A DNA stretch of 64,000 nt from Thalassia testudinum (taxonomy: Eukaryota; Streptophyta; Magnoliopsida; Alismatales; Hydrocharitaceae): NCBI GenBank assembly GCA_037157565.1, contig JAZHRO010000019.1, positions 23,127,001 through 23,191,000 of the forward strand, written 5' to 3'. The stretch's first letter is position 1, and every line of letters begins with the position of its first letter. Positions 7,937 through 63,207 of this stretch are shown here, in pieces. Below the pieces are notes generated by a model. The model saw only the letters and a program-made list of their open reading frames with translations. It did no database searches and was not told the origin of the DNA. The position numbers were made by a program, and so were the translations under genes.

Positions 7937-7962
7937 TCGTCTGATTTGGAAATCAGACGACG
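7937..7962. other. Hairpin GTCGTCTGATTT...AAATCAGACGAC
   Basis: Perfect 12-bp inverted repeat with a 2-nt centre in LTR fragment D, downstream of its TATA box. The related LTR of element B has a shorter version at about 12497-12519 (CGTCTGATT, 4-nt loop, AATCAGACG). Confidence 0.8.
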
Positions 7963-9732: not shown

Positions 9733-9750
9733 TCCCCGGCAACGGCGCCA
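9733..9750 (-). other. Primer binding site of element C
   Basis: Minus strand TGGCGCCGTTGCCGGGGA, three bases inside the 5' LTR edge at 9754. This is the intact TGGCGCC-type site usually assigned to tRNA-Asp in Athila-like elements. It fixes the element as minus-oriented. Confidence 0.88.
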
Positions 9751-12169: not shown

Positions 12170-14913
12170 TGCCCGGGTGCTAAATCGATGTTTTAAAATT
12201 GTCGCGTTGCAGTATAGCCAAAATAACGCTCAAACAAATAAATTTATTACTCGAAAAAGATCCGAGGTCGAACACAAGGAGCAATATGGAATTCAGTTCT
12301 CAAAATTGCAATTTAAGACAAAAAAGCTATGAAATTGTAAATAAAAACTATTTCAAAATAATGTAGTACTAGAATCAAGTGTCTAACTGCAAAAATAATG
12401 GAGTAAAATGGTGATTTAGATCACCAAATACTCCTTACAATGATAACTAATGAACTCAATGTATATATATATGTATGAAATGCAATCAAACCAATCGTCT
12501 GATTTACTAATCAGACGGCTTAAACTGCTTAAGCCTTTCTCTATTTTTCTTCTTCTTATCTCTTTCTCTTCTTCTGCCTCTCTTCTTCTTTTAGCTACAG
12601 CCCTTCCTCTTCTTTGTGTTCTTCTCTTACTTTCCTTCTCTATCTCTACAACTCTTCTTCTTCCTTCAGCTTTTCTTCTTTCTCTGGCTTTCTTCACACA
12701 GCAGGGGAAGCTTCTGAATTCGGCTAAGTGTTAGCTGAATCTCACCAAGAGAAAAACCCTCCCCCTACCCACGCAGGCTCTCCTTCTCTCTTTCTCTCTT
12801 TAAGATCCGCTCTCCTAGAGCCACAAGGGTAATCATGTTATCGGACCTAGCATACCCAGGTCCAGGGCAGTGGGTGTGATCGCAGCCGAGGAGTGTAGGC
12901 TTAGGTGGGTTAACGGGTTTGGCCAAGTCCGCGGGTAGAGGTCATGGAAGAGGCACAGGTGCGTGGGTGAGAGGGTTCTCACCCCGTGTTTGGAGGAAAA
13001 TAGCTCACTTGACAAATTCAATTTATGAGTGGTCATGCAGGCGTCTGTTCGTGATGTGGCACTAATGCCATGCTTGTTCTTCGCACAAACAACAGTAGCG
13101 GATGGCCTTCAATTGGCATCCTTGAAGTGGTCAATGCTCCCAATTGATCACCTAGGGATGCTTCTGGAGGTAATCCGCACTACCTGAGGGTGTCACCTGG
13201 GGACTTCGTGGTTAAAACACCACGAACACTATCGGAGAAGACAATGCGGCGGTGGAGCTCCGACTTGGAACCTGAAATAGAAAATAAGGCCTTTTAGCAG
13301 CGTCAAAACACCTCGGGAGGTTTGCTAAACATTGGCGAACGTAATGGCAGTGGTTTCGTGTGAGGATGGGGTACGTGGTGGTGGAGAAGGTTGTTGGTGA
13401 TGGGCCAGTTCGGGGAGTGATGTGAGTGGATGTAATGGGAAATTGAGAGAGGGGAAATGAGCGGAGAGGTGTGGCAGAGGTTTTGAGGTAGGCAGTGAGG
13501 GGTTTGGTGGTGTGTGGAGCAAGATGTACCTCGCCGGAGGTGTGCCCAGAGAGGTAGACGATGGAGTCGCAGAGGCGCAGTCGAGGTCGAAACGGCATGT
13601 CGAAAGTGTTGGTGTGATGAGGAAGAGGTTAGGGTGCAGTTGAACATAGTAATGAACAAAGTGGGAACGAGAAGCCGCCAATTGTGGTGTTGTCGGTGCC
13701 GGAGAAGAGAACAGCTCCAGAGAGAGGGAATCGGCGAAGAAGGTGATCAAGGCACTAGCTAGTACGGCTCGACACAGGAAGAAACGAGGAAGATAACTCC
13801 GCTGCTGGTATTACGAACAAAGGACAAAGGACGGAGGAGCTCAGCAGACGTCGAGGAGCTTTCGGCCGAGAGAGAGAGAGGAATTGGGGGGGGAATCTTG
13901 GCCGTCGTCGAGCATAGGGAGAACGGTCTGATCAGGTGGTTCTTTTATAGACCCCATGAAGAAGTTTTGAGCTTAGGAAGCAAGCTTCCCAACCTTGGAA
14001 GGCTTGCCGGAGTTGGGAAATTCCTTGATACCCAAATCTCTAATGCGTTCGCATGAGGGATTGGGAAGGTTTTGGGGCGTGGGATTTAGTTCAAAAGGAA
14101 GGGAATTTCTTGATCAACTTTCCTTTCAAATTTGAAAGGGATTCGTCAAGAAATCAAGGAGTTCTTTCCAAATCAAGGTTGCCGGAGCAAGTAAGAATAG
14201 GTTTAATGGCGACAAGGACCTTTTTGTGAGAACTACGACAACGTTAGGGGTCTATTTGAAAATATTTTGAAAGTTAAGATCATAAATGTAATCAGATAGG
14301 ACCAAGTTGCAAACTAGGTCAAGACAAACTCATCTTGGGTCCAAATTTTGGCACAAACCCAATTTGAACCTATGGAATCCAATGATAAAGTTGGATTTTA
14401 GTTTTGACCATGTTTGACTGGGTAATTTATGCAGCAACCAAAATTAGGGCAAATGTCTATCTGAGACTCTATTCTGGGTCAAATTGGGTTCTGATGATCA
14501 AATTGAAGATTCTAAACCCTAGGGAATATTTTTCAATGAATTTTAGAAGGTTTGAGTGAATTTTATCTTAACCAAAACCTCAGTTAATTAAGCGGGTCAG
14601 TGAATTTTATCTTGACCAAAACCTCAATGAATTTTAGGGTTTCAAAATTCATTTAATTCTCAAAACATGTGCAAACCCTTTTCTGATTGTTCTAACCCAT
14701 TTGTTAGCCTTTTAGGACCATTTGACCCTTAATTAACCCCTACGAAAACCCGTGGTTGTACTGCATTCATGATATGATGGAAAACCCCTAGTTTATTATT
14801 TTTTCCTCAGAATGATTATGCAGTGACTTATGACTCTCTGGCAGTTATGTAGGAGCATTTACTGATTTAATTGGATCAAAATGAGCTAATTATGGCTCAT
14901 GATGGTGTTCCCA
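12170..14913 (-). repeat. 5' LTR of element B
   Basis: 2.74 kb; plus-strand edges TGCCCGGG... and ...GTTCCCA. Minus-strand TATA box (TATAAAA) at the complement of 13943-13949. It is homologous, in reverse, to LTR fragment D. The terminal 100 bases near 12206-12300 also resemble the U5 end of element C's LTR (motifs GTCGAACACA and CAAATAAA). Hairpin at about 12497-12519. The right edge joins directly onto TNP2 coding sequence, so B is inserted in a CACTA transposase; the flanking five bases are TAAGC (14914-14918). The partner 3' LTR is outside the window. Minus frames at 13.2-13.75 kb are low-complexity transcript-leader sequence. Confidence 0.75.
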
Positions 14914-20606: not shown

Positions 20607-20636
20607 TGTTATAACCCCGACATCAAACGTCATTTA

Positions 20637-21544
20637 AGACGTCTGGGAATTGGTCCAGACGTCTGGAAGCCTTCCCAGACGTCTGGAATTTAATTTTCTC
20701 GGTGTACAGGTTCGCGTCTGCTCGCATGCGCGCGCATACTGAACCGCTGCCCTCCTTTCTACTCTTTCCTTCCTCCCTGCAGGCGCAGCCATCTTTTTCT
20801 CTCTCTCTCCCCACGGCAGCCTTCAAATACCCCCTCTCCTCTCCTCACCCTCACTCCACCACCTTCTCCTTCTTTTTCTTCCTGTTAGCAAGAGAGTGAG
20901 CGGACGAGGGCAGCAGCAGCCGCTGTCGTGAGTGCGTGGGGAGGAGGGGTTGTTGCAAGAGGGAAAGAGCTAGATCGTGAGGTTGCGAGCTTGCCGGAGC
21001 AGCCAGGGCCGGCCAGCGGGTGCGCAGCAAGAGCGTGGTGTTGGGGAGGAGCTGCTGCAGCTCAGGCAGCAGGCGAGCGTGGCACGGCACGGCCGTGCGC
21101 AGCGAGCGGAGGGTGAGGAGGTCCTGATTCTGGGAAATTTTCCCAGAATCAGACGTCTGGACATACATCCAGACAACGCAGGAGACGTCTGGAGGAAGGT
21201 CCAGACATCTGAAAGGTACGATATTTTTCCTCCCCATTTTCTTTCGCATGTACGGCCATGCAGCCGTTCCGTCGAAGGGTTCTGCTTCGTTTCGTGTTGA
21301 GGATGGTCGCATATGTGCAGGTCTCATTCAGGAAGGCGCAAAGGCACGCCCTCCCACACAGATCGGACATCTAGGCACAGCACCAGATGACGGAGATGGT
21401 CTCCAAACGTCCGGAGTGACAGTCGGGCGTCTGGAAACTAAGTCCAGACGGTTCAGCGGGATTCTGGATGTCTGAAGGACCGCGCAGGATCAAGGTATGA
21501 CATGAGCCATCGTTTAAGACGTCTGGAAGATGTTCCAGACGTCT
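20637..21544 (+). promoter_or_regulatory. Phased AGACGTCT palindrome clusters in solo LTR A
   Basis: Box starts: cluster 1 at 20637, 20657, 20677; cluster 2 at 21151, 21171, 21183, 21203; cluster 3 at 21365, 21385, 21405, 21425, 21446, 21466; cluster 4 at 21517, 21537. Gaps are 20 bp almost everywhere, with one of 12 and one of 21. Strong pairs read AGACGTCTGG, 8 nt, CCAGACGTCT. The core GACGTC is the C-box type ACGT element bound by many plant bZIP factors, but no binder is known here. Confidence 0.8.
21124..21152 (+). other. Conserved LTR hairpin (copy A)
   Basis: Perfect 14-bp inverted repeat with a single central base, starting CTGATTCTGGGAAA. Equivalent hairpins occur at the same place in the other LTRs: 56031-56059, 63719-63747, 44700-44718 and 54126-54143. 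It directly precedes palindrome cluster 2. Confidence 0.8.
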
Positions 21545-23588
21545 GATTTTGGGCAGACCTGTCATTTTTGACCCATTTAGGGTCCGTTCGAAGTCCGTTT
21601 TCCGCGTTTCAAATTTTGTTCTTCTCTGATTTAGTTCCTCTACCTGTTTACAATATTTGTATCCTGTTCTGAGTAGCTCCTTGTAATTGATCCTTGTGCT
21701 AGGACCCCGTTCCGTTGCGGCGCTAGGGGTTGCGAAGGCATGCGAGCTTGCCGATCACACCCCCAGTACTCCCGATTTTGCGGGTAGAGTGGTCCCTTTC
21801 ATTATTTATCAAAAATTATGCACTTGTGAAATAATTAATAAATTCTAGGGTATTGCATAAATCGTAGGACTGAAAAACTAGATTGAATGATAGATCCTAA
21901 GGTATGGCATGAATCCTAGGACTGGAAAACTAGATTGAATATATATATTGCAGTCTTGGAAAAGTAGAAAGGAAAACGAAAACTGCCTTTAATTGGTTAA
22001 CAGTTGCCTGTTTATGAATGGATAATTAGTGTTGAAAACATGGGCTATATGAATATAAAGCTGAAATGATGAAACCTAAATTTGCTGAGTTAAAAAAAAA
22101 TGAGCATGAACCCTACGGGGAATTAGGAGTAGAGCTCCTGAGAAGTGAATGGAAAAGAATTGGGAAAGTAAGCTGGCCCTTGAGTACGGAGTACCAAGGA
22201 GAGCGACTGTCCCCTTGTTTAGTGCAGAGCAAAGCTAGCCACCCCAGGGACCCGGGGTTAAGTCTGGCCACTTTGTACCGACTTTTGGCCCTCGTGTACA
22301 CAGTACCGAGGAGAGCTACTAGTGTAGGGAGAGCACTAGCCACCCCACGGGCCCCAGGGTTCTGCTAGCCTTCCTACACCGACTTGTTAGGTCCACTGGG
22401 CAAACCAGGGTAGTCAGGCGAGGGTGCGCGGACTGTGATGGGGCAAGACCCCTGTTTGGTTACTGTGGAGGGGCTGGACCCCTGTTACTGAGAGGGCTCT
22501 GCCCTATACTGGTTCCGTGCTGTGCTTTGTGGCGCACCCGTTAACAAAAACGACTGACCACGTGCCAGTGCAGGGTAGCTACCCGTGCGTTTATCGCATG
22601 TGCCGTAGTCACCGTTACGTCTATCAGTGACCTTGGGGTGGTTGACTGAGGGTAGGACCACCACAGGAGACTCTCCCAGCCAGGAGAGCACCACATGTTA
22701 CTTCTACTTTTCGGAAAAGATTGCAATCAAGATCGTTCCCACGAGGAACATTCGAGATCAAGAGAAAGATCCGAGGAATAACTCAATAATGAGTAAATGG
22801 AAAATAAAGAAAGAGATTAAAAATATAACAGCTACTGTCCACCTTACTGTTTTTCTTAGCTTTTGGTTACCACTCTACTCAGCGTTTCGCTAACGTGTCA
22901 CCTTTTCAGGACCAAGTGTTAAGCAGCCAGAACCGATGGCTGCGGAGGGAGTTGGGCCTAGTAGAGCCTAGTAGTCTTACTTATGTAGTACCTACTGTAC
23001 CGTATCTTTTGTGTAGTGAGTATTTTTCTGTTACCATTGTACTCTTTTAGTGTAAACATCATGTTTATGTACCTGTTTATTTCTTTACTGTTGTGGTGGT
23101 GTATACTGAAGTAGTTCTTTTCTTTACTGTTGTATTTTGTTACTACTAGTTATATATATGGTAAATGTGGTTTATTTTACTGCTCTTTTGGTTACTTTCT
23201 CATTGGATGACTGGGTCTTGGGATCAGTCGAGTTGGTCCGATCCTCGTGTCTCGTAGGGATTCGGGAATCGGGTCGTAACAATACTTAGGTACTAATATT
23301 ATTTATTTTGACATTATGCAAGATTATATATATATAGAGAAGCAAATACAAGAGTCAATCTTATTTATCCCTTACTCCCTTAAGGCCATAAAAAAGGGGG
23401 ACAGGGGGACTAGACCAAAACCTTCCCCATACAAAAAAAAGAAGGACCACGACTCGTGGCCTAGTACAAAGGCTAAACAAAATTGAGAGCCAAACCTCAA
23501 AAAACAAAAACAAAAACCCAAAAGGAAACAACAAGTAGGCACAGGGAAGAGGCCACTAGGACAAGCCTAGAAGTTGATAAAACATGGA

Positions 23589-36772: not shown

Positions 36773-39134
36773 TGTTAAGATCGTATGTCGCATTTTTGAT
36801 AGGAAAATGTCGTAGTATAGTTGCGAAATATGATAAACAAAAATAATTTTTAAAGAGATAACGAGACTTGAATCCCGATCGTTCATCTCTAGGTGGTATT
36901 TGTTTTACTTTACAATTCGACTTTTGCCGCTCTACTTTGTCTAAAATCACACGTCGATTTCCAATCTCCTGATTAAGATTTCACCACTTCTGTTATGAAC
37001 TCTAATTACATGCGCGTGCGTTAAATAAATCACAAAGGCGAATATGTGAGTTTCTATGTGTACAATTCTAGTGAGGTGGTGACTGTTTACGGAGAATACA
37101 TCTATCGTTAGATTTTCTATATTCTCGAGAAACGACATGCTTGTTGCAGAATAGATACACAATTGAAAAACAGGCAATTTCAATCACACAAACATGATAG
37201 CAATTAATAAGCTCATTGTGATTTCAAAACATGGAGATATATATATAAAAGTATTTTTCATTCATTCAATAAGAAAGTTGTTTGCAACAAAAACTGTAGA
37301 GGAAAGCTTGTACAGAAATGATTAAAATGTAAATCTATCTACCAGAAAACGATTGCATACAAGAATCTATAAGGGAGATTTTGCATGCATCATTGGGAGA
37401 TAATAAAGACTACGCTACTAAGCAGTAATAAAAAGTAGTAAAACTATGAAGAGCATAAACTACTGATCTATAGCTAGTAGAACAAAAGGACATTCAGGGG
37501 TGATCCCCGATGGCCTTGGAATGGTCGGGAGGAGAGTGAGGGGCGGTCAATGAAGCTTAGACCGACCCTTGGAGGGAGAGATGAGTGAACCAACATCTCA
37601 GCATGGTGTCTTTCATGATAGTTGTGAGCTCGTGGAGATGGAGTGGCTAACCTAAGTGAAGGTGGACGTGAATGGAGCCAATGAAGTGAACAGTGCCAAA
37701 AATGTGAATGGGTGCAATTGGCCGCCCATTGGATCTTTTTATAGACCCAAGGGCTTCTCTCTAAAGAGGTGTGGAACTCTCCAGAGAGAGCCCAAAAGTG
37801 GCCTACCATATGGTTATGAGATCCAAAAAATGTGGATCTCATTTTGAATGCCACTTGATTGTTAAATTTGACAACCAAGAGGTGACGCCACTTCAAGAGA
37901 GTTCTAGATTACTCTAGAGAAGTGTGTGTGCGTGAATGGGCGTGTGTGTGTGTGTGGTCGTGCTCTAAGTGTCTAAGAGGTTTAGGTTAGGTCCTAAGGG
38001 GTTTGGGTAGGTGTATGCCTTGAATTAGGGTTACAAACCCTAATTGCTAAGGGAAAAATGCAATTAAACTTGACTTAAGTTTAATTGGATGAATGTGAAC
38101 CTAATTGAGAGTGAAATAACTCAATTAAGTTGAATTTAGGTCAATTGAACTCTCATTAAGTTCAATTAAACTTGTGTGGGTTGAGATCTAAGTTCAATTA
38201 GACTCTCACTAAATCCAATTGAACTTGTGTGGGTTGAGATTTATGCTCAATTTGACTCAATGAGTCCAATTGACTAAGTGAAGATAATTGACTTTGATCT
38301 AAGTCAATTGGGTTTGATGATGACCTAATTATATCCTTAGGTGGGTCTAGAGGCGATGTACTAAGGTTAGGACACCTTAATTTAAATTCCTATGTGGTTG
38401 GGATTAGGTCTAGGGAACTAGAGATCCAAGATCAAGACTTGAATCTCAAAACAGGAATTAGAGATCAGTATAAGACGTCCAAAAATGTGATCAGACGACT
38501 TATACTCAAAAATCAAAAGTCCAAACTTTAGTTCTGGACGTCCAATCTGAGTTAAGGGGAAATCAAGATTTTGTTTTGAGTATTTTACAGAAATTTGACG
38601 TCTAACAAAGTGTCAAGACATCCAATAACACTGCATAAGTGAATTTGAGGTATGCGAGAGTTGACTAAGAATCCGAGACGTCCTATAACTTATCTGGACG
38701 TCTAGATAAAAGTTGAAACTACAATTTTAAGGTTTCCTCAGATATTGTGACCTAATCTAATGGTAACTAAGACTTAGGAAAGTCTTTAAGTTACCTTAAA
38801 GTTAAGATGAACATAAACTCTTCACATTTTACTGCTTTATTTCTACTTAATAGAATATCAACATTTAACTCCCTTACATTATTATTCCTACATCTAATCT
38901 AAATCTTCTGCTTCAACTCTGCTACACTCCCATCATTCCTGATCAAATTTCAAATCCAACTCTAGATTAACTTATTACCTGTAATCAACATAATATATTT
39001 AATCAATACATTATAACATTATTTTACACATAACTTAAGAAAAATTAATGCTTATACATACATAAATAACCATACCTTATACTAAATTTATATCTAATCT
39101 AAATCAATTAAGATCTTTAATTACTACTTAACCA
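36773..39134 (-). repeat. 5' LTR of element 2
   Basis: 2362 bp, partner of 27621-29964. TATA at the complement of 37737-37743. Relative to its partner it has an extra tandem copy of a roughly 65-bp CAATTG-containing unit near 38146-38248. In the last 400 bp it shows a strong excess of A/T where the partner has G/C. Palindrome pairs are at 38473/38493, 38523/38536, 38596/38616 and 38676/38696; three of these four pairs are exactly 20 bp apart. Confidence 0.9.
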
Positions 39135-44155: not shown

Positions 44156-46970
44156 TGTTAAGACCCGTGTCGTTAAGCTTTTTTAAGACGTTCGTACTTT
44201 AGGTCAAACATCCGGTAAGACGTCTGGACTAAGGGTCAGACGTCTTGCAAGATGTTTGGACTCATTTCCAGATGTCTGAAAATCAAAATTTTGTGTACGT
44301 CCTCGCTTCTACACGCGTGCTGCACACAGACAGTACGCGACCCTCGTTTTCTTCACCTTCTCTCTCCTCTTGCCTGACGCAAACCCTAACCCCACCCCTT
44401 ATATAACCCCCTCCTCTCCCTCACACCACCCCCACTTCTAGCCACCCTTCTCCCTCCAGTAGAGCAACGAGCAACGAGAGTGAGCGGCGAGGGAGGAGAG
44501 GAGGAGCAGCGAGGGGAAGAGAGGAGTGCAAGCAGCGCGAGCTCGCGTGGGAGCTTGCCGGTGAGCTCACGGCCGGTCGGCGCATGCACAAGGCAGAGGA
44601 GTATGTCGGGGAGGTCCTCCCCGACACTGCAGCCGGAGCAGCAAGCGAGCGGGCACGGCGCTGCCACGAGCGGCGCGAGGATGCAAAGGCGGGTTCTGGT
44701 TTTGGGATTTTCCCAGAATTAGACGTCTGGAGAGACGTCCAGACGACGTAGTCGACGTCTGGAGGAGGTTCCAAACGACTGAGAGGTAAGCTTCGCGAAC
44801 GTACTTCTCCTTTGCGGATACGACCCTGCAGGCCGTTCCGCCAAGGAGCGGTTTCGTGCCTTATTGAGAAGATTTCACTTGATTTGCATAGAGGTTGCTT
44901 CGGGAAGGCGCGGGACACACCCTCCCACGCAATTTGGACGTCTAGGCGAGGCACCAGATGACGGGAAGCGTTTCCAGACATCCGGAAAGGTGGTCGGACG
45001 TTTGGAACTGGGTCCGGACAGTCAAGCAGAGTTCTTGGATGTCTGAGGAGTGACGCAGGACTTGAGGTATGGCTCTGGACTCTTTTAAGATGTCTGGAAG
45101 GTGTTCCAGACGTCTGATTTGAATCAGAATTACTATTTTTGACCCGTTTAGGGTCCGTTTGAGGTCTAATTTCCACACTTAAGATACCATTGTTTCTCGT
45201 ATGAATTTCTCTACTTGTTGGAATACTTTCTATAATGTTCTGAGTAGTCTCTTGTGATTGATCCTTGTGATAGGACCTCATTTCGTTGCCGGTTTGGGAT
45301 TTGCTGAGGCACGTGGACCTGCCGATTAAGTCCCCACTACTCCTGGGTTTACTGGTAGAGTGGTTTTCCCTTAATTTAATTACAACCTAATTGCCTGTGT
45401 TGAATAAATGATTAGAACATAGGATATGACATGAATCATAGGACTAGAAATACTGGATTGTCTGTATTGAATGAATGAATTGCAGTCTTGAATAAGTAGA
45501 CAGAATGATAACAATTGCTAGTAAATAAATAACAGCTGCTTGTGAAACGTAAAGTACTTGTGTTAGCAAACCGTTGCATGTGAATTCCTGTTGCTTACGT
45601 TAAATGACATACTATGAGCTGCATGTATATAAATTGAAATTGAAAAGGTGAATGTTGGAAACACGAGCTATCTGTAAATAAACTGAATATGGAATAGAGT
45701 TACAAATTGCATGTGTATAACCTGAGAATGGAAATAGAAATGAGGAAACCTGGTATGGCTTGGCCTAAGAAACATGAGCATGAACCCTACGGGGAATTAG
45801 GTGTAGAGTTCCTGGAAATAAACGGAATGGAACTGGAAATGTGAGTGGGGAAGTGAGCTGGCTCTTGAGTACGGAGCACCAAGGAGAGCGACCGTCCCCC
45901 TGTTCAGTGTAGAGCCGAGCTAGTCGCCCTTGGGTTAGGACCTAGGGTTAGGATTGGCTACTCTGTATCGACTTCTTGGTCCTCACATACACAGTATCGA
46001 GGAGAGCTACTAGTGTAGGGAGAGAGCTAGCCACCTCATGGGGCCCGGAGTTCAACTAGCTGCCTTACACCGACTTGTTAGGTCCACTGGGCAAACCAGG
46101 GTAGTCAGGCGAGGGTACGCGGACTGTAGAGGGGCGAGACCCCTGTTTGATTCTTAGGGGCTAGACCCCTGTTACTGAGAGGGCTATGCCCTATAGTGGT
46201 TCCGTGTTGTACTTTGGACGTACCCGCTAATGGAAATAACTGACCGCGTGCCAGTGTGGGGTAGCTACTCGTGCATTTATTGCGCGTGCCGTAGTCACCA
46301 TTACGTCTGTCAGTGACCTTGGAGTGGTTGACTGGGTGTAGGACCACCACGGGGGACTCTCCCAACCAGGAGAGCACCACGTGCTACTTCTACTCTTCGG
46401 AAAAGACTACAATCAAGATCGTTCCCACGAGGAACATTCGAGATCAAGAAAGAGACCTGATAGTTAAATGGTGAAAGAAATAATAATTAGTTAAAGAAAG
46501 AAAGAAATTGAAAAATAATAGCTATCTATCCACCTCTACTGTTTAGTAGTTGGTTGCCACTCTACTCAGTGTTCGCTGACGTCTTGTACTCATAACCTTT
46601 TTCAGATCCAAGTGTTGAGCAGCCAGAGCACACGGCTACAAAGGGTGTTGAGCCCAGTAAAGCCCAGTAGTCGTAGTTCTTTTGTACTCATTTGTAGCAG
46701 TGAGTAGCTTCTTGTACCTTTATATTCTGTACTCTTTCGTTCTACACTTTATATTCCTATACCTGTTTACTTTGCTACTGTTGTGGTGGTGTGTACTGTA
46801 GTAGTTTACTTCTTTACTGCTGTACTTTTATTACTGTTAGTTGCTAGCGTGGTGAATGTGGTTTATTTTACTGCTTTTTGGTTACTTTCTCATTGGACGA
46901 CTGGATCTTGGTATCACTCGAGTCAGTCCGATCTCGTGTCCTGTAGAGATTCAGGAACCGGGTCGTAACA
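44156..46970 (+). repeat. Solo LTR C, Tekay-type, inside the PMD gene
   Basis: 2815 bp, starting TGTTAAGACC and ending TCGTAACA. The flanks TGAAT (44151-44155) and AGAAT (46971-46975) share four of five bases, a probable target duplication. It has the same layout as LTR A and element T: TATATAA at 44400-44406, phased palindromes, hairpin, splice-like sites and three-hairpin module. PMD coding sequence lies on both sides in the same orientation. Confidence 0.9.
44186..45115 (+). promoter_or_regulatory. Phased palindrome clusters in solo LTR C
   Basis: Box starts: 44186, 44206, 44218, 44238, 44250, 44270 (gaps 20/12/20/12/20); 44721, 44741, 44753, 44773 (20/12/20); 44936, 44956, 44976, 44996, 45016, 45037 (20 x4, then 21); 45088, 45108 (20). 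Several boxes have lost the palindrome by substitution, yet the spacing is kept. Confidence 0.78.
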
Positions 46971-53449: not shown

Positions 53450-55498
53450 TAGTGAAATGACTCTTTTCAAGGATTGTTTGGAATTTTTTCGGAAAGTTAA
53501 AGGCATAAATGTAATTTTTGACCTCTTGAGTTCGGGTGTGTGGGTCTTGCGGGAACAAGAGAGGATGGTAGGGAAGTTTCCACAATCTTTTCCTCTCTCT
53601 CTTCCCACTCACACACTCACGCACACACACATGCACACTTCCCCTCCCCTCCAAACCCTAACCCTTTCCTATTTAAAACCCACACCACCCCTCTCCACCA
53701 TCACACCGTCACCACCACCTCCACCTCCTTCCCTTGCTGCCGGCGAGCACCAACAACCTTCCCATCTCTGCTTGCAGCCGCGCGTGGAGGAGAGGAGCTT
53801 GCGAGAGGAGGAGAAGGAGAGAGAGGGAGAGTGTCAGTGAGGAAGAGGGAGGGCATGGAAGGGAGAAGAGAGTGCTCGGGGGAGCTTGAGAGTGCACAAC
53901 CGGAGGAGCTCGGTCGGGAGAGCTCACACAGGAGGACCCTTGCTGCCGGTACAGCAGCGAGCGCTCGGAGTTGCAAGGGGAGGAGCCGCAGTCGGAGGAG
54001 CTCGTGCGGGAGGAGACGAGGCCACCGAAGGAGGGTCCTCGACCTCCTACTGCTGCTGGGATCATTGCTACAAGCATTGCGGGAGAAGCTCGCGAGAAGC
54101 AGGATCGCGCGAGAAAGTTCCAACGTATTGGATTTTTCCAATATCAGAAGTCTGGAGCATCTGCCAGACGTATGGAGCAACAGCGAACGTCTAGAGCTGA
54201 AGTCAGACATCTAAAATTTCGCGGAGTGCCAAGAAATGAGTCCTGTATGCTTATGCATGTGCATACGGGAAGTACACAGCGTTGTGCTGTCGTGGTTTTG
54301 AACCTGCGAATGCATGCGCAGGTACAGGCCTTGGAAAGGCATGCAAGCACACTCTTCGAGGTGCTTTAGGACATCTAGACGTCTCCACAGATGTCTAATA
54401 GTCATATCGGACGTCCAGATGCACTAACAGACATCTAGAAAGACCCAGGAAGACTGTAAAGGGGTTTCAAACATTCGCCAGCAACACATGAACAACAGGT
54501 GAGTTAGACGTCATTTAAGATGTCTGGGCCTATTCCCAGACGTCTGAATTTGGTCTGTGTGCACGTTTTTGGCCCGTTCAAGGCCCAAACGGAGTCGGTT
54601 TTACGCAAATGAAGTACCATTGTTTTCCGTTCGAGTTTTTCTATGCGTTAGTAACAGTTACATACCATTCTGAACTCATCTGATGTGACTTAGTCACTTG
54701 TATAGGTCTCCAACCTGTAGCGTGTTTGGGGCCCGCAGAGATGACAGGATCTGCGTTTCAGGCCCTCATTCCACCCGTGAATCTTGGTAGAGTGGTTTAC
54801 TTTGATACTAAAGATTTAAATTAATAAAGTACATGTTTAGAATAACTTATTTGAACCCTAGGATGTGAAATGAACCTTAGGGCAGAAGCAAATGAACATT
54901 GCTTGAGCTACACTGTTTACTTTGAGATACTCGTTAAACCCTAATTGCTAGCAAGTGTATAGATACATGATATGATGTTTCTTCAGTTATTAAAACACGA
55001 GTTGCCTGTTATATGAATGAGAATCGAAATGTGAACAACGAGATATGCATGTTGAAAAATGAAATGAAATGAATACGAGCATGAACCCTACGGGGAACTA
55101 GAAGAACTCCTGTATATGAAAAAGAATCTCGTATGTAGACGAGAAGTAAGCTGGTCCTTGTGTACGTGGTACCAAGGAGAGTAGCTGTCCTTTTAGTGTA
55201 GAGGGGAGCTAGCCACCCCTTGGGTTGAGACCCAGGGTTAGGACTAATCACTCTACATCGACTCCTGTTCGGCCCTCACGTACGTGGTACCGAGGTAAGC
55301 TACTTAGTGTATGGAGGGAGCTAGCCGCCACACGGGGCCCGAGATTAGGAATAACCACCTTACACCGACTCTTGTTAGGTCCATTGGGTGAACCGGGATA
55401 GTCGGATGAGGGTACGCGGATTGTGGAGGGGTGACACCCCTGTTCTGAGAGGGCAAGGCCCTGTGTTGTTCCGTGCTATACTTTTGGGCCTACCCGCT
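53450..55498 (+). repeat. Diverged Tekay-type LTR, truncated by element T
   Basis: Older relative of the LTRs of A, C and T. Landmarks in order: TATTTAAA at 53670-53677, hairpin at 54126-54143, palindrome clusters (54146-54212, 54369-54436, 54518-54545), donor-like site at 54499, the conserved block GAACCCTACGGGGAACTAG (55083-55101) and the GTTAGGTCCA block at 55373. It stops at 55498 inside a conserved segment (TACCCGCTT), where element T begins; the remainder should lie beyond position 64000. The left edge is uncertain because the usual first cluster is not present. The 224-codon plus frame at 53540-54214 is not conserved in the other LTRs. Confidence 0.7.
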
Positions 55499-55528
55499 TG
55501 TTACGAACAGGGCATCAAGCGTCGTTTA

Positions 55529-56452
55529 AGACGTCTGGGAAGTGGCCCAGACGTCTGGCCAGATGTCGGGAAGCCTTCCCAGACGTCTGGTATTAAAATT
55601 TTTCGGCGCACGGGTTCGCGTCTGCGCACATGCACACGCAGACTGAACCCGCCGCCCTCCTTCTTCTCTTTCCTCTCCCTCCCTGCAGACGCTACCTTTC
55701 CTCTTTCTCTCTCCCCACGGCTACCTTACAAATACGCTTCCCCTCTCCCTCACCCTCACTCCACCGCCTTCTTCTTCTCCTTCTCCCTGTCAGCGAGAGA
55801 GCAAGCGAGCGAGAGCGGCAGCAACGACTACTGCGGGCGTGTGGGGAGGAGAAGCCATTGCGAGAGGAAGAAGGAGCTCGACCGCGAGGGTGCGAGCTTT
55901 CCGGGGCAGCTAGAGCCGACCGGCGGGAGAGCAGCGAGCATGGGGTGCCGCAGAGGAGCTACTGCAGCTCAGGCAGCAGGTGGACGCAACGCGGCACCGC
56001 CACGCACTGCGGGCGGAGAGCGAGAAGGTTCTGATTCTGGGAAAATTTCCTAGAATCAGACGTCTGGACTTACGTCCAGACGACGTAGGAGACGTCTGGA
56101 GGAAGGTCCAGACGTATGACAGGTACGTTATATTTTATCCTCTCCTTCTTTCGCGTGTACAGCCATGCAGCCGTTCCGCCAAGGTCTTCTGCACCCTTTC
56201 GTGATAAGAGCGGGCATGTGTGTGTTCAGGACTTGTTCGGGAAGGCGCAAGGGCTCGCCATCCCACATAGATCAGACGTCTAGGCACAGCACTAGACGAC
56301 GGAGAGGGCTTCCAGAAGTTCGGGGTGACAATCAGACGTCTGGAAACCAAGTCCAGACGTTCCAGCGGGATTCTGGATGTCTGAAGGACTGTGCAAACCA
56401 AGGTATGACCTGAGCTACCTTTTAAGATGTCTGGAAGAAGCTCTAGACGTCT
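55529..56452 (+). promoter_or_regulatory. Phased palindrome clusters in element T 5' LTR
   Basis: Box starts: 55529, 55549, 55561, 55581 (20/12/20); 56058, 56078, 56090, 56110 (20/12/20); 56274, 56294, 56314, 56334, 56355, 56375 (20/20/20/21/20); 56425, 56445 (20). The full palindromic form is CCAGACGTCTGG. Confidence 0.8.
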
Positions 56453-57817
56453 GATTTTGGATAGACTGGTTATTTTTGACCCGTTTAGGGTCTGTTCGAA
56501 GTCCGTTTTCCGCATTTCAAGTTTCGTTCTTCCCAGATTTAATTCCTCTACCTATTTCCAGTAATTGTATACTGTTCTGAGTAACTCCTTGTGTTGATCC
56601 TTGTGTTAGGACCCCGTTCCTTTACGGCTCTGGGGGTTACAGAGGTGCGCGGGATTGCCGACCATGCCCCCAGTACTCCCGATTTTGCGGGTAGAGTGGC
56701 CCTTTAATTTATTTATCAAAAATTATATATTTATGAAACAATTAATAGAGTCTAGGGCATTGCATGAACCCTAGGACAAACTAGATTAAATGATTGATCA
56801 TAGGATATGGCATGAATCCTAGAACTGGAAAACTAGTTGAATATATATACATTGTAATCTTGGAAAAGTAGAAAGGAAATGATAACTGCCTGTAAATTGG
56901 TTAACAGCTGCTTGTTTAAGAATGAATAATCACTGTTGAGAACATGGGTTACATGGATATAAAGCTGGAACGGTGAAACCTAAATTGGCTGAGTTAAAAG
57001 AGCATGAACCCTACGAGGAATTAGGAGTAGAACTCCTGGAAAGTGAATGGAATAGAATTGGGAAAGTGAGCTGGCCCTTGAGTACGGAGTACCAAGGAGA
57101 GCAACTGTCCCCCTATTTAGTGCAGAGCGGAGCTAGCCGCCCCAGGGACCGGGGTTAGGTCTGGCCACTTTGTACCGACTTTTGGCCCTCGTGTACACAG
57201 TACCAAGGAGAGCTACTAGTGTAGGGAGAGCACTAGCTACCCCACGGGCCCCGGGCTTTTGCTAGCCCTTCTACACCGACTTGTTAGGCCCACTGGGCAA
57301 ACCAAGGTAGTCAAGCGAGGGTGCGCGGACTGTGGAGGGGCAAGACCCCTGTTTGGTTACTGTGGAGGGGCTGGGCCCCTGTTACTGAGAGGGCTCTGCC
57401 CTATACTGGTTCCGTGCTGTGCTTTGGGTGCACCCGTTAATGGAAACGACTAACCGCGTGCCATTGCGAGGTAGCTGCTCGTGCGTTTATCGCGCGTGCC
57501 GTAGTCACCGTTACGTTTGTCAGCGACCTTGGGGTGGTTGACTGAGGGTAGGACCACCACGGGGGACTCTCCCGGCCAGGAGAGCACCACGTATTACTTC
57601 TACTTTTCAGAAAAAATGCAATCAAGATCGTTCCCACGAGGAACATTCGAGATCAAGAGAAAGATCTAAGAAATAATTCAATAATAAATAAATGGGAAGA
57701 ATATAAAGAAAGAAATTAAAAAAATATAACAGCTACTGTCCACCTTACTGCTTCTTAGCTTTTAGTTGTCACTCTACTCAGCGTTTCGCTGACGTGTCAC
57801 CTTTGTTACCTTTTCAG
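56123..57817 (+). other. Splice-like borders inside the LTR
   Basis: Donor-like ACAG|GTACG at 56123, acceptor-like TGTTCAG at 56229, donor-like AAG|GTATG at 56403, acceptor-like CCTTTTCAG at 57817. In LTR A the equivalents are 21216, 21320, 21495 and 22909; in LTR C they are 44786, 44891, 45067 and 46605. Implied lengths agree: first intron 105-107 nt, middle exon 173-175 nt, second intron 1415 nt in A and T and 1539 nt in C. No splicing evidence exists beyond the sequence. Confidence 0.4.
57533..57644 (+). other. Three-hairpin module near LTR end
   Basis: Stems GGTGGT/ACCACC, CTCTCC/GGAGAG and GTTCC/GGAAC lie in order within about 112 nt. The same three are at 22637-22749 (A) and 46323-46435 (C), with the stems unchanged while some loop bases differ. 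Confidence 0.6.
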
Positions 57818-58191
57818 GATCAGGTGTTAAGCAGCCAGAGTCGGCGGTTGCAGAGGGCGCTGGGCCTAGTAGAGCCCAATAGTGTTACTTGTAGTACCCA
57901 CTGTACTTTTCTTGCTGTTGTTGTGAGTAGTTTCTGTTACCCCTGTACACTTTTCATTGTAAGCTTCATGTTTATGTACATGTTTAATTCTCTACTGTTG
58001 TGGTGGTGTATACTGTAGTATTTCTTTTCTTTACTGCTGTATTTTGTTACTGCTAGCTATATACATGGTGAATGTGGTTTATTTTACTACTCTTTTGGTT
58101 ACTTTCTCGTTGGATGACTGGGTCTTGGGATCAGTCGAGTCGGTCCGATTCTCGTGTCTCGTAGGGATTCGGGAATCGAGTCGTTACAAGA

Positions 58192-58203
58192 TGGTATCAG
58201 AGC
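58192..58203 (+). other. Primer binding site of element T
   Basis: TGGTATCAGAGC, the standard plant site complementary to the 3' end of initiator methionine tRNA, three bases after the LTR end. It appears intact. Confidence 0.92.
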
Positions 58204-58369
58204 AAGGTCGTCCCGAGAAGTGAACCAACTGACTGGAAAATAACCAATTCACGTGTCTGTAACTAGAGTAGCCACCACAACGTTTCTCTTGACATAAGCT
58301 CTTAGACTTCTTCGTTAGATATCGTTATATTGACAAGTTTTCATTCTGTTTCGCGTCTCCTTGCAGAAG

Positions 58370-59518
58370 ATGCCTCGACGAGGGACTAGCGAGGCGGGCT
58401 GCGGGCGCGGCCGAGGACGAGGTCGGCGAGGTAGGCATGTTGCTGTCGACGTCTCAGTGGACCTGCCACTTCACCCGGGCATTCAGGCCCAGGACCTCGC
58501 CCAGCTGATACGGGACATAGTGCGAGAGGAGCTCCACCCGCCGCCCCGAGCGCCTCTCCCTGGGGCTGCGGAGGGGGAGTCCTCTATGGGACCACGTGAC
58601 GGATGTGGCACTGGACGCGGGGGAGGGGATGGGCCGCCACCGCCCCCACCTTCCTCCGACACTTCTGTGCACGAGGCTTCCTTACCTGGAGGTGCACCAG
58701 CATCCCCACTGCAGCGCCACTTCGAGCTTTTCGGGCAGTTCCGGAAGCTGAAGCCCCCCTCCTTCAAGGGGGATGAGGACCCGACCGAGGCGAAGGACTG
58801 GCTCGAGCAGATCGAGAAGTTTTTCGACACCCTTTGGCCCCCGGTGGAGTGCTGCGTGGCCTTTGCCACGTACCAGCTGGAGAGCGCGGCACGCCAGTGG
58901 TGGAGGGCGGTCAGGGGACAGGAAAGGGATGAGCCGACCTGGGACCGGTTCGTCACCCTCTTCTGCGAGTAGTACTTTCCCCAGACATGGCAGGACCAGA
59001 GGAGGCGGGAGTTCCACACTCTCCGCTAGGGGACGATGACTGTGAGCGTGTACCGCACGCATTTTCTGGAGCTGTCCCACTTCGCAGCGACAGGAGTAGC
59101 CACTGAGGAGGAGCGCCTTTGGAGGTTCATCGAGGGGCTCCGGCCTACGACTCGGGGGTATGTCAAACCCCTTAAGCTTCCTATGTTCTCGATGGTGGTG
59201 GAGGCAGCTATGACCTACGAAGAGACCAACCCGTTCGCGCGAGATACTGACAGCGGGCGGAAGAGGCCCTATCAGCCAGACTTTTCACAGGGCCGGCGAG
59301 AGAGAAGACACATGGCGCCTGTAGGAAAGCCGTCACGGTTTGCAGGGCCATAAGTGGCCTTTGGGGGCCCTCGACAGGGGCCAGTTGCTAGCACCGGACC
59401 CCCGCCCAGCCGATAGTAGGGACCCACTGAGGGCGGGAGTCGGGTTCCCCTCTGCTACTAGTGTGGCCAGCCGGGCCACATTAGGAAGGACTGCCCATCT
59501 AGGGCAGGAGGTCAGCAA
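58370..59518 (+). pseudogene. gag of element T
   Basis: Chromovirus capsid/nucleocapsid gene. The start is the ATG at 58370 (MPRRGTSEAG), just after an acceptor-like CTCCTTGCAG. Arg/Gly-rich N-terminus, then the capsid core with KLKPPSFKGDEDPTEAKDWL, ALE-type segment FFDTLWPP, FATYQLESAARQWWRAV, WDRFVTLFCE. It continues after stops with YRTHFLELSHFA, EERLWRFIEGLRPTTRGYV and an Arg-rich tail. It ends with a CCHC knuckle at 59453-59494 (C-Y-stop-C-G-Q-P-G-H-I-R-K-D-C). In-frame stops at 58970, 59027, 59414, 59417 and 59459 are TAG; 59351 is TAA. The frame is otherwise continuous. Confidence 0.9.
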
Positions 59519-60340
59519 ATGCTTCCTGCGCCGAGCACTGGAGGGCGAGCAGGAGGCCGCGGTTTCCAGTCGCGAGGAGGACAACAGTCACGAGGGGGGT
59601 TCCGGCCAGCAGCTACCCATCCGACGCAGAGTGTGGCTGCTTCGTCCACACCTGGGGCTGAGGGGCGTATCAACGCTTTGACACACAGGGATGCTAAAGC
59701 TTCGGGATCAGAGGTGGCAGGTATGGTTTTAGTTTCCGGCAGACTCGTTTACACGCTTTTCGATTCCGGCGCTACGCACTCGTTTGTCGCCGCCAGTTTC
59801 GCAGTTAGTTTAGGCCAGGATTATATGCTGTTAGAGGATCCGTTCGTGATCAGAGGTCCGAGTGGTCAGCTATTTGTAGCTGAGGAGGTATACACGGGTT
59901 ACGAGCTCAGTATTGGGGGACATAGCCTTCCCGCTGACTTGATTATGATACAGATGGAGGACTTTGGCATAATTCTGGGGATGGACCGGCTGTCCGCTTA
60001 CCACGCCTTGGTGGACTGTTTTGAGAGAAAGATCGTCTTCTCCATACCAGAGTTGCCTTCTTTCGAGTTCTACGGTCAGCCAGTGGACGAAGGCTTCAGG
60101 TGCATTTCTGCACTTCGGGCGGTGAGACTTTTGGGCCAGGGGTGTGAGGGTTTCCTAGCTTGTGTGGTGGTAGAGCCCAGCCCTATGGCAGACTTCCAGA
60201 GTATCCCGGTGGTCAGAAAGTACCCCGACGTGTTCCCAGATGAGTTGCCAGGACTACCGCCCGAGTGTGAGATCGAGTTTGAGATCTCACTAGTACCAGG
60301 GACCAGCCCCATCTCCACCGCACCATACAGGATGGCACCA
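59519..60340 (+). pseudogene. Protease of element T
   Basis: Aspartic protease domain in the same frame as gag, with no stop until 60371. Start region is Arg/Gly/Gln-rich, then GRINALTHRDAKASGSEV. The active-site block is LVYTLFDSGATHSFVA, with catalytic DSGA at 59762-59773. A conserved strand follows (GYELSIGGHSLPADLI), and the block GIILGMDRLSAYHALVDC (about 59970-60020) is typical of Ty3 proteases. The linker to RT contains VVRKYPDVFPDELPGLPP. This domain has no premature stop and looks intact at sequence level, although the polyprotein as a whole is not. Confidence 0.9.
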
Positions 60341-61160
60341 CTTAAGCTGCGAGAGCTCAAGTCTCACTTGTAGGATCTTTTGGAGAAGGGCTTTGTGAGG
60401 CCCAGCGTGTCTCCCTGGGGAGCCCCGGTACTATTTGTAAAGAAGAAGGATGGTACCTTACGTCTTTGTGTGGACTACTGACAGCTGAATAGGGTCACCA
60501 TCAAGAACAGATATTCGCTATCGAGGATCGATGACTTGTTTAACCAGTTACGAGGTGCCACGGTATTCTCCAAGATCAACTTGAGGTCTGGATACCACCA
60601 GTTGAGGATCAAGGAGGTAGACGTCTCCAAGACAGCTTTCCGCACCCAGTACGGACACTACCAGTTTCTGGTCATGCCGTTTGGGCTGACCAATGCCCCC
60701 GCTGCCTTCATGGACTTGATGAACCGGGTGTTTAGACCGTACTTGGACCAGTTTGTGGTGGTATTCATTGATGATGTGCTCATCTATTCTCTAGATCAGA
60801 CGTAGCACGGACAACACTTGCGGATGGTTCTGGACACACTGAGACGACGTAGGCTATACGCCAAATATAGCAAGTGTGAGTTCTGGTTGAGGGAGGTGAC
60901 CTTCTTAGGTCATGTGATCTCTGGAGATGGCTTGGCAATGGACCCAACCAAGGTCAAGGCAGTGCTCAGGTAGGAGAGACCGCATACGGTTACTGAGATT
61001 TGCAGTTTCTTGGGATTGGCAGGCTACTACAGGCGATTTATCAGGGGCTTTTCATAGATTGCACGTCCTATGACACAATTGATCCGGAAGGACGTGCCTT
61101 TCACTTGGACAGACGCCTGTGAGGCATGTTTTCAGGAGCTGAAGGAGAGGCTGACTTCAG
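60341..61160 (+). pseudogene. Reverse transcriptase of element T
   Basis: RT of the Ty3 type. Blocks in order: [20 protein letters not shown] after the TAG at 60371, [12 protein letters not shown], then a TGA at 60479 and [26 protein letters not shown] and [19 protein letters not shown] follow, then the catalytic FIDD at 60764-60775 within [11 protein letters not shown]. Then come [42 protein letters not shown]. Stops at 60803, 60971 and 61055 are TAG. All catalytic aspartates are present, but the chain is broken. The primer is probably tRNA-iMet (58192). Confidence 0.9.
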
Positions 61161-61600
61161 CTCTCGTGCTCACCATCCCAGATAGTAGTGGCGGGTTCGT
61201 TGTGTACATGGACGCCTCCTTGCAGGGGTTAGGGGGTGTGCTCATTTAGAGGGGTCACGTTGTCGCTTACGCTTCGCGGCAACTGAAGCCCCATGAGCAT
61301 AGCTACCCTACCCACGACCTGGAGCTGGCAGCTGTTGTCTTCGCGTTGAAGACCTAGAGGCACTACTTGTACGGTGAGACCTTCGAGATTTTCACAGATC
61401 ACAAGAGTCTCATATACCTATTTGATCAGAAGGAGCTCAACATGAGACAGAGACGTTGGTTGGAGCTCCTGAAGGACTATGACTACAGCATTTCCTACCA
61501 CCCGGAAAAGGCCAACGTGGTGGCTGACGCCTTGAACCAGAAGGTGCCCGCACACTTGGCCAGTTTACAGGTGCAAAGTTGGAGCCTTTTGGAGGAGATG
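61161..61600 (+). pseudogene. RNase H of element T
   Basis: Ribonuclease H that would remove the RNA template. Motifs: VYMDASLQGLGGVLI (first Asp, about 61205-61246), then TAG at 61247, [20 protein letters not shown] and ELAAVVFAL (Glu region). A TAG at 61355 stands for a family tryptophan. Next FEIFTDHKSLIYLF (third Asp), QKELNMRQRRWLELL, DYSISYHPEKANVVADAL. It is contiguous with RT on the left and the integrase zinc domain on the right. Confidence 0.88.
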
Positions 61601-61779
61601 GCCAGTTGGCGACCCCTAGAGTTACGGGGGCACTGTGGGGCAGTGACTGTGACACGACATATGAGGCCAGAGCTGATAGATCGCATCATCACAGGACAGA
61701 TGGCTGACCCGTACTTGCAGTCCTTGCGCGACAGAGTACTGTCAGGTGACCTGGGGGACTTCTCTTTCACAGACCAGGT

Positions 61780-62640
61780 GTTGCGCCTGAGGGGACGTTT
61801 GTGCCTTCCCAGAGACGAGGAATTGTTGAGAGAGCTCCTGACTGAGACACACGGTTCCAGATTCAACATACATCCTGGAAACATGAAGATGTACCATGAC
61901 TTGAGACGCGAGTTTTGGTGGAGGGGGATGAAGCGGAATGTGGGTGAATTCGTGCAGCAGTGTTTAGTGTGCCAGCAGTTGAAAGTCGAGCATCAGAGGC
62001 CTGCAGGGCCGCTACAGCCACTTCCAGTGCCAGAGTTGAAATGGGAGAGCATCACCATGGATTGGTGGTGGGCTTACCTGTTACCCAGCGGGGACACGAC
62101 GCAGTCTAGGTAATCGTTGGTAGATTGACGAAGACGACACGTTTCTTGCCGATCCGAGTCACCTTGGGACCAGCACAGTTGGCAGAGAGGTATATCCGCA
62201 ACGTGGTACATCTACACGGAGTTCCGCGGGAGATCGTATCCGATCGGGATACCTGCTTTACGTCCCAGTTTTGGGCTGAGTTTCAGCAGGCCATGGGGAC
62301 ACGGTTGAGGTTCAATATAGCTTACCACCCCTAGACGGACGAACAGACTGAGCTCGCAATACAGACACTTGAGGACCTTTTGCGTGCCTATGTACTGGAC
62401 TGGAGGGGCTCTTGCGAGGAGCACTTGCCCCTGGCGGAGTTTGCATATAATAACAGTTATCACTCGAGCATCGGCATGGCACCCTACGAGGCTCTGTACG
62501 GACGGAGATGTACGGCACCCTTGAGTTGGGTTGAGGTGGGGACCATGTGGGAGGTTGGCCCCAGGCTGATCCGGCAGAGTCAGGAGGTAGTCGAGTAGAT
62601 TCACAGGCGACTCCGCACTGTCAGGAGCAGGTAGAAGAGC
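61780..62640 (+). pseudogene. Integrase of element T
   Basis: DDE integrase that inserts element DNA. The HHCC zinc domain is readable as ETHGSRFNIHPGNMKMY then FVQQCLVCQQLK (61845-61985). The first catalytic Asp is in SITMDWW (about 62052). A frameshift follows near 62080; a TAG at 62107 stands for tryptophan. Then RLTKTTRFLPIRV, and VSDRD with the second Asp (62236-62250), FTSQFWAEFQQAMGT and YHP. TAG at 62332 precedes the third acidic block (TDEQTELA). Then FAYNNSYHSSIGMAPYEAL and RRCTAPLSWVEVG; TAG at 62596 and 62632. Not functional as it stands. Confidence 0.9.
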
Positions 62641-63129
62641 TATTCAAATCGAAAACGCAGGGAGGTCTAGTTTGAGGTTGGGGACCACGTCTTCCTTCGT
62701 GTTTCGCCCATGAAGGGTCTGCAACGGTTTGGGGTGAGAGGGAAGCTCGCGCCGAGGTTCGTGGGGCCCTTTGAGGTCCTGGAGCGGGTTGGACCCGTTG
62801 CTTACAGGCTTGCCCTCCCTCCTCATTTTTCTGGTGTGCACGACGTGTTCCACGTGTCCAACCTCAGGAAGTACGTCGCCGATCCCAGTCACGTCCTGAG
62901 TCACGAGAGCGTCGAGGTGGGCGACGACCTGACCTACCCCGAGCGGACAGTGCAGATTCTTGACAGAGCCGTCCGCAATCTGAGACGAAAGCAAGTACCC
63001 CTTGTGAAGGTTTTGTGGAGGAGCCAGCGGTATGAGGAGGCTACCAGGGAGCCTGAGGCAGCGATGCAGAAGCGGTACCCGGAGCATTTCGCGGGTACGT
63101 CTTTTCGGACCAGCTTCAGTCCTCTTTGA
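62641..63129 (+). pseudogene. Integrase C-terminal region and chromodomain of element T
   Basis: After a TAG at 62668 the frame is open to a natural TGA at 63127. It has the linker VFLRVSPMKGLQRFG, then GKLAPRFVGPFEVLERVGPV, LPPHFSGVHDVFHVSNLRK and YVADPSHVL. The chromodomain has the chromovirus form: QVPLVKVLWRSQRYEEATRE followed by PEAAMQKRYPEHF. In this lineage the domain is thought to guide insertion to methylated histone H3 chromatin, which fits the nested heterochromatic setting. This type, with LW and EEAT.EPE, is typical of Tekay/Del. Confidence 0.9.
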
Positions 63130-63207
63130 GTTTGTTATGCATATATTATTCTTTCCCGCACCCTAGTTAGCATAAGTTTCGGGGATGAAACTTCCTTTGA
63201 GTTATAT
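63130..63207 (+). other. 3' untranslated stretch of element T
   Basis: Contains GTTTCGGGGATGAAACTTCC, the usual chromovirus context before the PPT. The expected purine run immediately before the LTR is missing or eroded (GAGTTATATTA). Confidence 0.55.

Follow-up and report, generated by a model that had tools for sequence, protein, structure and literature searches.

Arrays of a precisely spaced inverted repeat in gypsy LTRs of Thalassia testudinum as candidate operators

The long terminal repeats (LTRs) of a chromovirus family in this genome carry arrays of short boxes whose spacing is kept to a single base, and the same unit is found in the LTRs of a second gypsy lineage. The box that is most easily seen is the 8-bp palindrome AGACGTCT; it is probably not this palindrome that is constant, but the inverted repeat CGTCTG-N10-CAGACG. 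In our main reading, to which we give a probability of roughly 60%, the arrays serve, at the level of DNA, as operators within the LTR control region, bound by a dimeric or tetrameric protein that is probably the host's and that sets LTR transcription. The window referred to below is the whole stretch of DNA that was analysed, 64,000 nt (C20:23127001-23191000) of a genome of 4.26 Gb in 237 contigs.

Boxes in the window and across the genome

By pattern count the window contains 26 exact copies of AGACGTCT and 47 of GACGTC. A first-pass annotation of this DNA had described phased arrays of the palindrome in several LTRs, and on re-reading all of its positions and steps were found to be right. 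Solo LTR A of chromovirus family T (20607..23281, plus strand) has a TG start, a CA end, the 5-bp duplication ATACT on both sides and 84% identity to 55497-58189; its boxes were re-read at 20637/20657/20677, 21151/21183 and 21517/21537. Cluster 1 of this LTR (20637..20684) has three boxes in steps of 20/20 and lies upstream of a TATA-like site. Cluster 2 (21151..21210) has boxes at 21151, 21171 (AGACAACG), 21183 and 21203, after which comes a GT splice-donor-like site, and cluster 4 (21517..21544, TTTAAGACGTCTGGAAGATGTTCCAGACGTCTGA) has the best-conserved spacer of all unit positions (0.96). Solo LTR C (44156..46970, plus strand) is a diverged copy of the family with TG...CA ends and 5-bp flanks TGAAT/AGAAT (one mismatch). 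Its boxes are at 44186-44277, 44721-44760 and 45088-45115, with steps of 20/12/20/12/20 at 44186-44270. In the 5' LTR of element T the arrays extend over 55529-55588, 56058-56117, 56274-56382 and 56425-56452; the steps are 20/12/20 both at 55529-55581 and at 56058-56110, and 20/20/20/21/20 at 56274-56375. A diverged and truncated LTR relative (54046..55444, plus strand) has decayed boxes at 54146, 54377-54436 and 54506-54545.

The spacing had also been said to survive the decay of individual boxes, and this is borne out, as the steps hold though only 2 of 6 boxes are exact at 44186-44270 and again 2 of 6 at 56274-56375. Exact boxes number 7 in LTR A, 8 in the 5' LTR of T and 4 in LTR C. The figure of 10-18 boxes per array was too high: allowing at most one mismatch, 7-10 are found in the five window arrays. 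Whole 32-bp units are lost from some copies, as had been proposed, but losses of 12, 20 and 30 bp occur too, and a 22-bp step that is frequent in a sister subfamily was absent from the earlier description.

Some other features of these LTRs and of the window can be recorded here. A separate near-palindrome, GATTCTGGGAAATTTTCCCAGAATC (also read GATTCTGGGAAAATTTCCCAGAATC), adjoins cluster 2 at 21126..21150 and is symmetric except at its centre. Counterparts beside cluster 2 are found in other copies (L003:1955, L015:7936, L022:6330); their letters and length vary among subfamilies and the symmetry is kept (GATACTGG...CCAGTATC in L018). In some copies this palindrome and its relatives contain TTCNNGAA, words which we take to resemble heat-shock elements. 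GT splice-donor-like sites lie after cluster 2 (21215, 56122) and before cluster 4 (21492, 56400), and in most aligned copies donor-like sequences (AGGTACG/AGGTGAGT, CAAGGTATG) adjoin these two clusters, which suggests an intron in the leader. At 18018-18398 there is a long AGG-rich purine tract, which comprises some 127 units of 3 bp and is open on the minus strand.

The observation made in the window is real and much larger than the window. Genome-wide, two palindromes at the 20-bp step (AGACGTCT-N12-AGACGTCT) occur 212,299 times, against 6 for a reversed control, and with one more base between them (AGACGTCT-N13-AGACGTCT, the 21-bp step) 896 times, against 3. Pairs of AGACGTCT with any gap of 0-30 number 358,049 (reversed control 955), and the steps among the 100 listed pairs, all of them on C1, are 20 (59), 12 (15), 22 (13), 32 (11), 30 (1) and 21 (1). 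The first-pass annotation had named a 20-bp peak in the spacing of GACGTC outside the window as a check on its claim, and this peak is present in 20 random regions of 10 kb (200 kb; 12 regions on C20, 8 on C1 and none on any other contig). GACGTC occurs 131 times in these regions, and only two of the 64 six-base palindromes are commoner; 37 pairs are at 20 bp, 18 at 32 bp and 8 at 12 bp. Of the other 63 palindromes only TATATA and ATATAT, both of them AT repeats, reach similar counts at 20, 12 and 32 bp. In a check that does not depend on the boxes, the 3' half was used to identify LTR copies; of the 13 that had no fewer than 900 bases of the 5' part inside the locus, 8 have two or more units. 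It was noticed post hoc that the alignments of the other 5 begin no earlier than base 286 of that half, and those of the 8 no later than base 253.

The repeated unit and its conservation

When the half-site CGTCTG is counted by orientation over 264 kb (random regions and window), convergent pairs at gap 10 stand out, with 40 exact cases and 81 with at most one mismatch; all other gaps from 0 to 30 stay at or below 22. Exact pairs at these other gaps number 8 at 22, 6 at 30 and 3 at 11, the rest having at most 1, and gaps 22 and 30 are as expected because of neighbouring units. Divergent half-sites make up the palindrome when they share 2 bases, and this arrangement was found 45 times in the 264 kb. 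Genome-wide, CGTCTGG-N8-CCAGACG occurs 189,107 times (control 4), with both full palindromes in 82,960 cases. Part of this shortfall must be ordinary decay, so that the evidence from individual positions is stronger. An alignment of 21 LTRs has nine recurring unit positions, and at three of them (columns 666, 906 and 968) the right outer half is not palindromic and varies (consensus frequency 0.80, 0.81 and 0.75; among the readings are ACG, GCG and TTC), with CAGACG on the inner side kept at 0.94 and the spacing intact. A fourth position, column 1010, is weak on the right throughout (inner 0.79, outer 0.85, reading AAG). These LTRs also conserve members of the unit that have no ACGT palindrome at all (CCAGACGACG or CCAGACGGCG). 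On the left, the outer half is kept at 0.88-1.00 at all nine positions, and at five of the nine the conservation of the outer halves is close to that of the inner ones. As outer halves are conserved at most positions, the unit may exceed CGTCTG, or the palindrome may matter in itself; an inverted repeat with an optional palindrome is the better fit, short of proof. The operator unit would then be an inverted repeat of the half-site (TTTA)AG(A/T)CGTCTG(G/A). In family T the outer half usually completes AGACGTCT, so that units can be chained with 4-bp linkers at a period of 32. The word TTAAG abuts 28 of 162 unit flanks, with a background of 0.0012 per position.

To see how well boxes are kept, they were compared with linkers in 21 LTR copies (210 pairs), box columns being defined from the other 19 sequences. 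Four of the copies are the window's own, 8 were picked out for their similarity to the window LTR of T, 4 were found by the box pattern and 5 come from random loci; the 8 were drawn from sites listed in the scoring of 40 of 14,672 candidates. In the 117 pairs with an overall identity of 0.50-0.65, boxes are 84-89% identical, linkers 51-65% and more distant columns 47-61%. For 48 pairs at 0.75-0.85 the values are 0.90-0.93 in boxes and 0.80-0.88 in linkers, for 43 pairs near 0.90 the boxes are not better (0.895, linkers 0.934), and for 2 pairs at 0.95 the values are 0.946 and 0.922. Boxes outlast their flanks between subfamilies and not between close copies, a comparison in which the alignment may favour boxes and 4 of the 21 rows were found through the box pattern. 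This is the pattern that purifying selection on active lineages, together with neutral decay of inserted copies, would give. Among 47 single changes in boxes with an intact partner, 19 are C>T or G>A at the central CpG.

We know of no factor that could be named for CGTCTGR. In the open literature, the matches listed for the letters AGACGTCT include no LTR paper, those listed for CGTCTG/CAGACG include one vertebrate retrovirus LTR and no plant LTR array, and LTR retrotransposon combined with palindromic and GACGTC gave no match. Going by titles and the starts of abstracts among the matches listed, a gypsy LTR array of this kind appears to be unreported.

Two lineages of carrier elements

Element T has a pair of LTRs with TG...CA ends and is flanked on both sides by the 5-bp target duplication CCGCT, at 55494-55498 and past the 3' LTR in locus L009. 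Its 5' LTR is at 55499..58188 and its internal region at 58189..63207, both on the plus strand, and a tRNA-iMet-type primer binding site (PBS) is found at 58192. Protease, RNase H and integrase were identified by Pfam, gag and RT by position; the gag frame gave no Pfam match. As to a C-terminal chromodomain on the integrase, the window copy (62671-63126) matches SH3_Tf2-1, with no Chromo match at 1e-3, and a relative at locus L007 matches PF00385 Chromo (E 2.1e-6). The family is assigned to the Ty3/gypsy chromoviruses because of the protease, RNase H and integrase of T and the chromodomain of this relative, and we take it to be of Tekay/Del type. The internal region shows only gag-pol and has little room for a further gene; copies in L015 and L022 are collinear with it over its whole length and the copy in L028 over nearly the whole. 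The 3' LTR (63208..64000, plus strand) continues into L009 to base 1871, and it starts with TA, not TG, at 63208.

Arrays in the loci analysed mostly belong to the same family: 26 of 33 fall in one BLAST cluster of the T LTR, 4 in a sister group and 3 in neither, with L004, L006 and L008 omitted from the array and cluster counts, and from the count of box changes, since they overlap L003, L005 and L007. Several array-bearing stretches fell to no family, as for example L010:8505 and L011:940 and 6471. At L018:948 the end of a T-type LTR directly adjoins a AGACGTCT box of another LTR. Two other carriers were considered and rejected. The array in L027, one of the 4 in the sister group, might have been carried by a Ty1/copia element, but it continues into the 3' half of a T-type LTR, so the copia gag there is a neighbour. 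Subterminal arrays of a DNA transposon are excluded by the LTR ends, the 5-bp duplications, the PBS and the gag-pol domains.

The second lineage, which is presumably Athila-like, has LTRs with a tRNA-Asp-type PBS, gypsy pol domains and single units. These have the form TTTAAGTCGTCTGATT-N-AATCAGACGAC or TTTAAGACGTCTGAT-N-ATCAGACGTCC, and members without an ACGT palindrome read AAGTCGTCTGATT...AATCAGACGAC. In the window they are found at 7938..7959, as an inverted repeat without palindrome in an LTR of this lineage, and at 12496..12517 (CGTCTGATTTACTAATCAGACG), where the surrounding sequence aligns with the LTR of L029; others are in L019, L025 and L029, and L024:461 and L027:9714 were assigned here by unit form alone. 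The pattern AAGTCGTCTGAT-N-ATCAGACGAC, with 1-12 bases allowed, gave 17,342 matches genome-wide (8,619 + 8,723 by strand) and 0 for the control; a site symmetric at both ends would score twice in this number, and there are no overlaps among the 100 listed. In these 100, all on C1, the gap is 6 bases in 97, which is the geometry of family T, and 7 in 3; copies within a family share ancestry, so the 97 are not independent events. Several of the listed sites form same-strand pairs 7.2 or 10.7-11.0 kb apart with an identical spacer, as for two LTRs. In the one pair that was checked the LTRs are 99.5% identical over 1,297 bp, with the PBS directly after and pol domains between, and BLAST gave no match between this LTR (L038) and that of T. 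TTAAG at the unit edge is present in both lineages, so that either a module was passed between them or the protein would also read the T/A-rich edge.

Palindrome-type boxes, too, are seen in or near elements primed by tRNA-Asp. Just outside the right LTR of the checked element, at L039:1418-1720, there are several GACGTC boxes and one unit, which are probably a neighbouring array. The LTR pair 27621-29955 / 36773-39125 (86% identical) belongs to another non-chromovirus element, a minus-strand, tRNA-Asp-primed gypsy with GACGTC-type box pairs at 20-21 bp; the 20-bp pairs AGACGTCC/AGACGACT and AGACGTCC/GGACGTCT lie at 38473..38703. A further LTR-like pair, 1075-2734 / 9754-11379, is 94.6% identical; its Asp-type PBS lies on the minus strand, at 9740.

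Possible roles of the arrays

In the operator reading, a sequence-specific dimeric or tetrameric protein would bind cooperatively to several units, both upstream of the TATA-like site and within the leader, and would thereby set LTR transcription. Cluster 1 lies upstream of this site, which reads TTATATAA, TATTTAAA, TTATAAATA or TTACAAATAC across copies. As element T shows only gag-pol, the protein would probably come from the host. An earlier suggestion from the window, that the arrays are a grammar for the binding of a protein dimer or tetramer, is the best-supported reading, with spacing precise to one base, boxes kept at 50-65% overall identity and half-sites that vary independently. The accompanying suggestion that the protein sits on one DNA face is compatible with the steps of 12, 20, 32, 40 and 52 bp, which correspond to about 1.1, 1.9, 3.0, 3.8 and 5.0 turns, as a matter of arithmetic only. 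Against the operator reading, box-to-box recombination also preserves the phase when a unit is lost. We lean towards activation as likelier than silencing, because the elements keep the sites while spreading and a host silencer would select for their loss.

Several other readings have to be weighed. Each AGACGTCT could be the site of a bZIP dimer, in an array of C-box or TGA as-1-like type in which the 12- and 20-bp steps set dimer-dimer contacts. The palindrome centres of as-1 lie 12 bp apart, the same as the 12-bp step of the arrays; bZIP half-sites prefer GTCA, whereas the outer base here is T/A. GACGTC is a C-box. TGA factors recognise C-boxes, two of their dimers can sit on tandem repeats, and the spacing is of importance (PMC9360754). 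A bZIP-like protein had been proposed earlier from the GACGTC core, and the conservation of outer halves at most unit positions speaks for it, with outer matching inner at 5/9 positions and the left outer half at 9/9. The proposal is weakened because the part common to both lineages is CGTCTG-N10-CAGACG, which in the second lineage lacks the palindrome: members without ACGT are conserved in both lineages, the commonest second-lineage form has no ACGT core, and at 3/9 unit positions the second member is mostly without the ACGT palindrome while the inner half is conserved. An ACGT-centred palindrome is thus not part of every conserved site, being found on both sides at 5/9 unit positions, and the inner flanks GGRA/GATT belong to the pattern. 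We consider the bZIP reading unlikely. ARF inverted repeats and the sites of HSF and VOZ are, we assume, a misfit in spacing or core. It is very unlikely that the arrays are the functionless product of passive tandem amplification, an ancient 32-bp minisatellite spread by template switching between identical boxes. Such switching would give the losses of 12, 20, 30 and 32 bp and would keep the phase automatically, but the inner spacer (N3-N6) is near uniform over distinct spacers while the boxes stay alike, the boxes hold CpG yet are best kept between subfamilies, and the second lineage has the same gap in single units.

Two further readings concern silencing or RNA. In the VANDAL elements, VANC proteins recognise short motifs that lie densely in the non-coding DNA of the element itself and evolve by tandem repeats (PMC5735166), and the arrays here are alike in their dense short motifs in non-coding parts and in the gain and loss of units. 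A protein of some transposable element might in the same way bind the arrays and counteract silencing. This has a very low probability in our view, since gag-pol fills the internal region of T, with which three other copies are collinear, no element-encoded DNA-binding protein was found when element T was searched, and the VANC21 motifs share one orientation and are not spaced inverted repeats (PMC5735166). RNA or cruciform hairpins are distinctly improbable, if somewhat less so. Every unit is self-complementary by construction, paired boxes would fold as 10-12 bp stems in the LTR transcript, and these could serve small-RNA silencing, dimerisation or packaging. Clusters 2-4 probably lie within the presumed leader, beside the GT donor-like sites; they are downstream of the presumed start, so that a role in RNA is possible, and palindromes in maize Sirevirus LTRs are described as small-RNA hotspots (PMC5311732). 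However, among 30 distinct, partly related spacers (from 100 listed sites in one stretch of C1) no compensating changes were found at N1/N8 to N4/N5: N1/N8 are complementary in 14/30, with 14.2 expected, and the inner pairs to N4/N5 in 14, 4 and 6 of 30, with 15.4, 7.8 and 7.3 expected. The sense strand has no clear G-U bias, with G-T versus A-C at 5:3 for N1/N8 and 1:2 for N2/N7 over 35 distinct spacers, and AGATGTCT 13 times versus AGACATCT 14 times. A stem has no need of an exact spacer length, and cluster 1 lies upstream of the TATA-like site. As the half-sites vary independently, a conserved stem is unlikely to be the feature that is kept; two half-sites at a fixed distance are.

The operator reading can be extended to both lineages, and here we are more tentative, regarding the extension as possible but doubtful. 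Gypsy lineages that separated in ancient times (chromovirus and tRNA-Asp-primed) would each have placed the operator TTTAAG(A/T)CGTCTGR-N8 in otherwise unrelated LTRs of one genome, answering one host protein with at least 200,000 sites, enough for titration. If true, LTRs would be under a host-wide control switch of an undescribed kind, in a field where the control of LTR transcription in giant genomes is mostly obscure. If the operator works in both lineages, one control point of the host is shared, by convergence or by trade, among unrelated retrotransposons, and the host factor has to coexist with more than 200,000 decoy sites. The genome is a natural saturation experiment with several hundred thousand operator variants and a spacing rule readable to one base, so that the binding protein can be looked for in one pull-down or DAP-seq screen.

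Tandem LTR boxes read by host factors are known from Tnt1 and Tto1 and from the heat elements of ONSEN; compared with the arrays here, these have few copies, other motifs and Ty1/copia carriers. The as-1 sites of TGA-bZIP factors (PMC9360754) are alike in having two dimer sites, a defined spacing and an ACGT core, as in most boxes here, and unlike in that our boxes have outer AGAC-GTCT and inner GG/CC flanks and conserved non-ACGT members. The closest precedent is the repeated motifs in the LTRs of Sireviruses, Ty1/copia elements with 8-32 copies of a short palindrome per element (Bousios et al. 2010, PMC2829016). There, 92% of the copies in the 3' LTR lie in its upper half, upstream of the TATA box, and a regulatory role was proposed; a CGG-CCG core is present in 12 of 13 elements, the Usier motif GTCGGACGTCCGAC contains GACGTC, and section 9 gives no fixed spacing between boxes (PMC2829016). 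The many short palindromes per LTR, upstream of TATA, are common to both systems. The elements here are not Sireviruses, as protease, RNase H, integrase H2C2 and chromodomain are as in gypsy and the palindromic core is CGTCTG/CAGACG, not CGG-CCG. They differ further in a pair spacing that is fixed to one base, and in arrays that also lie downstream of the TATA-like site.
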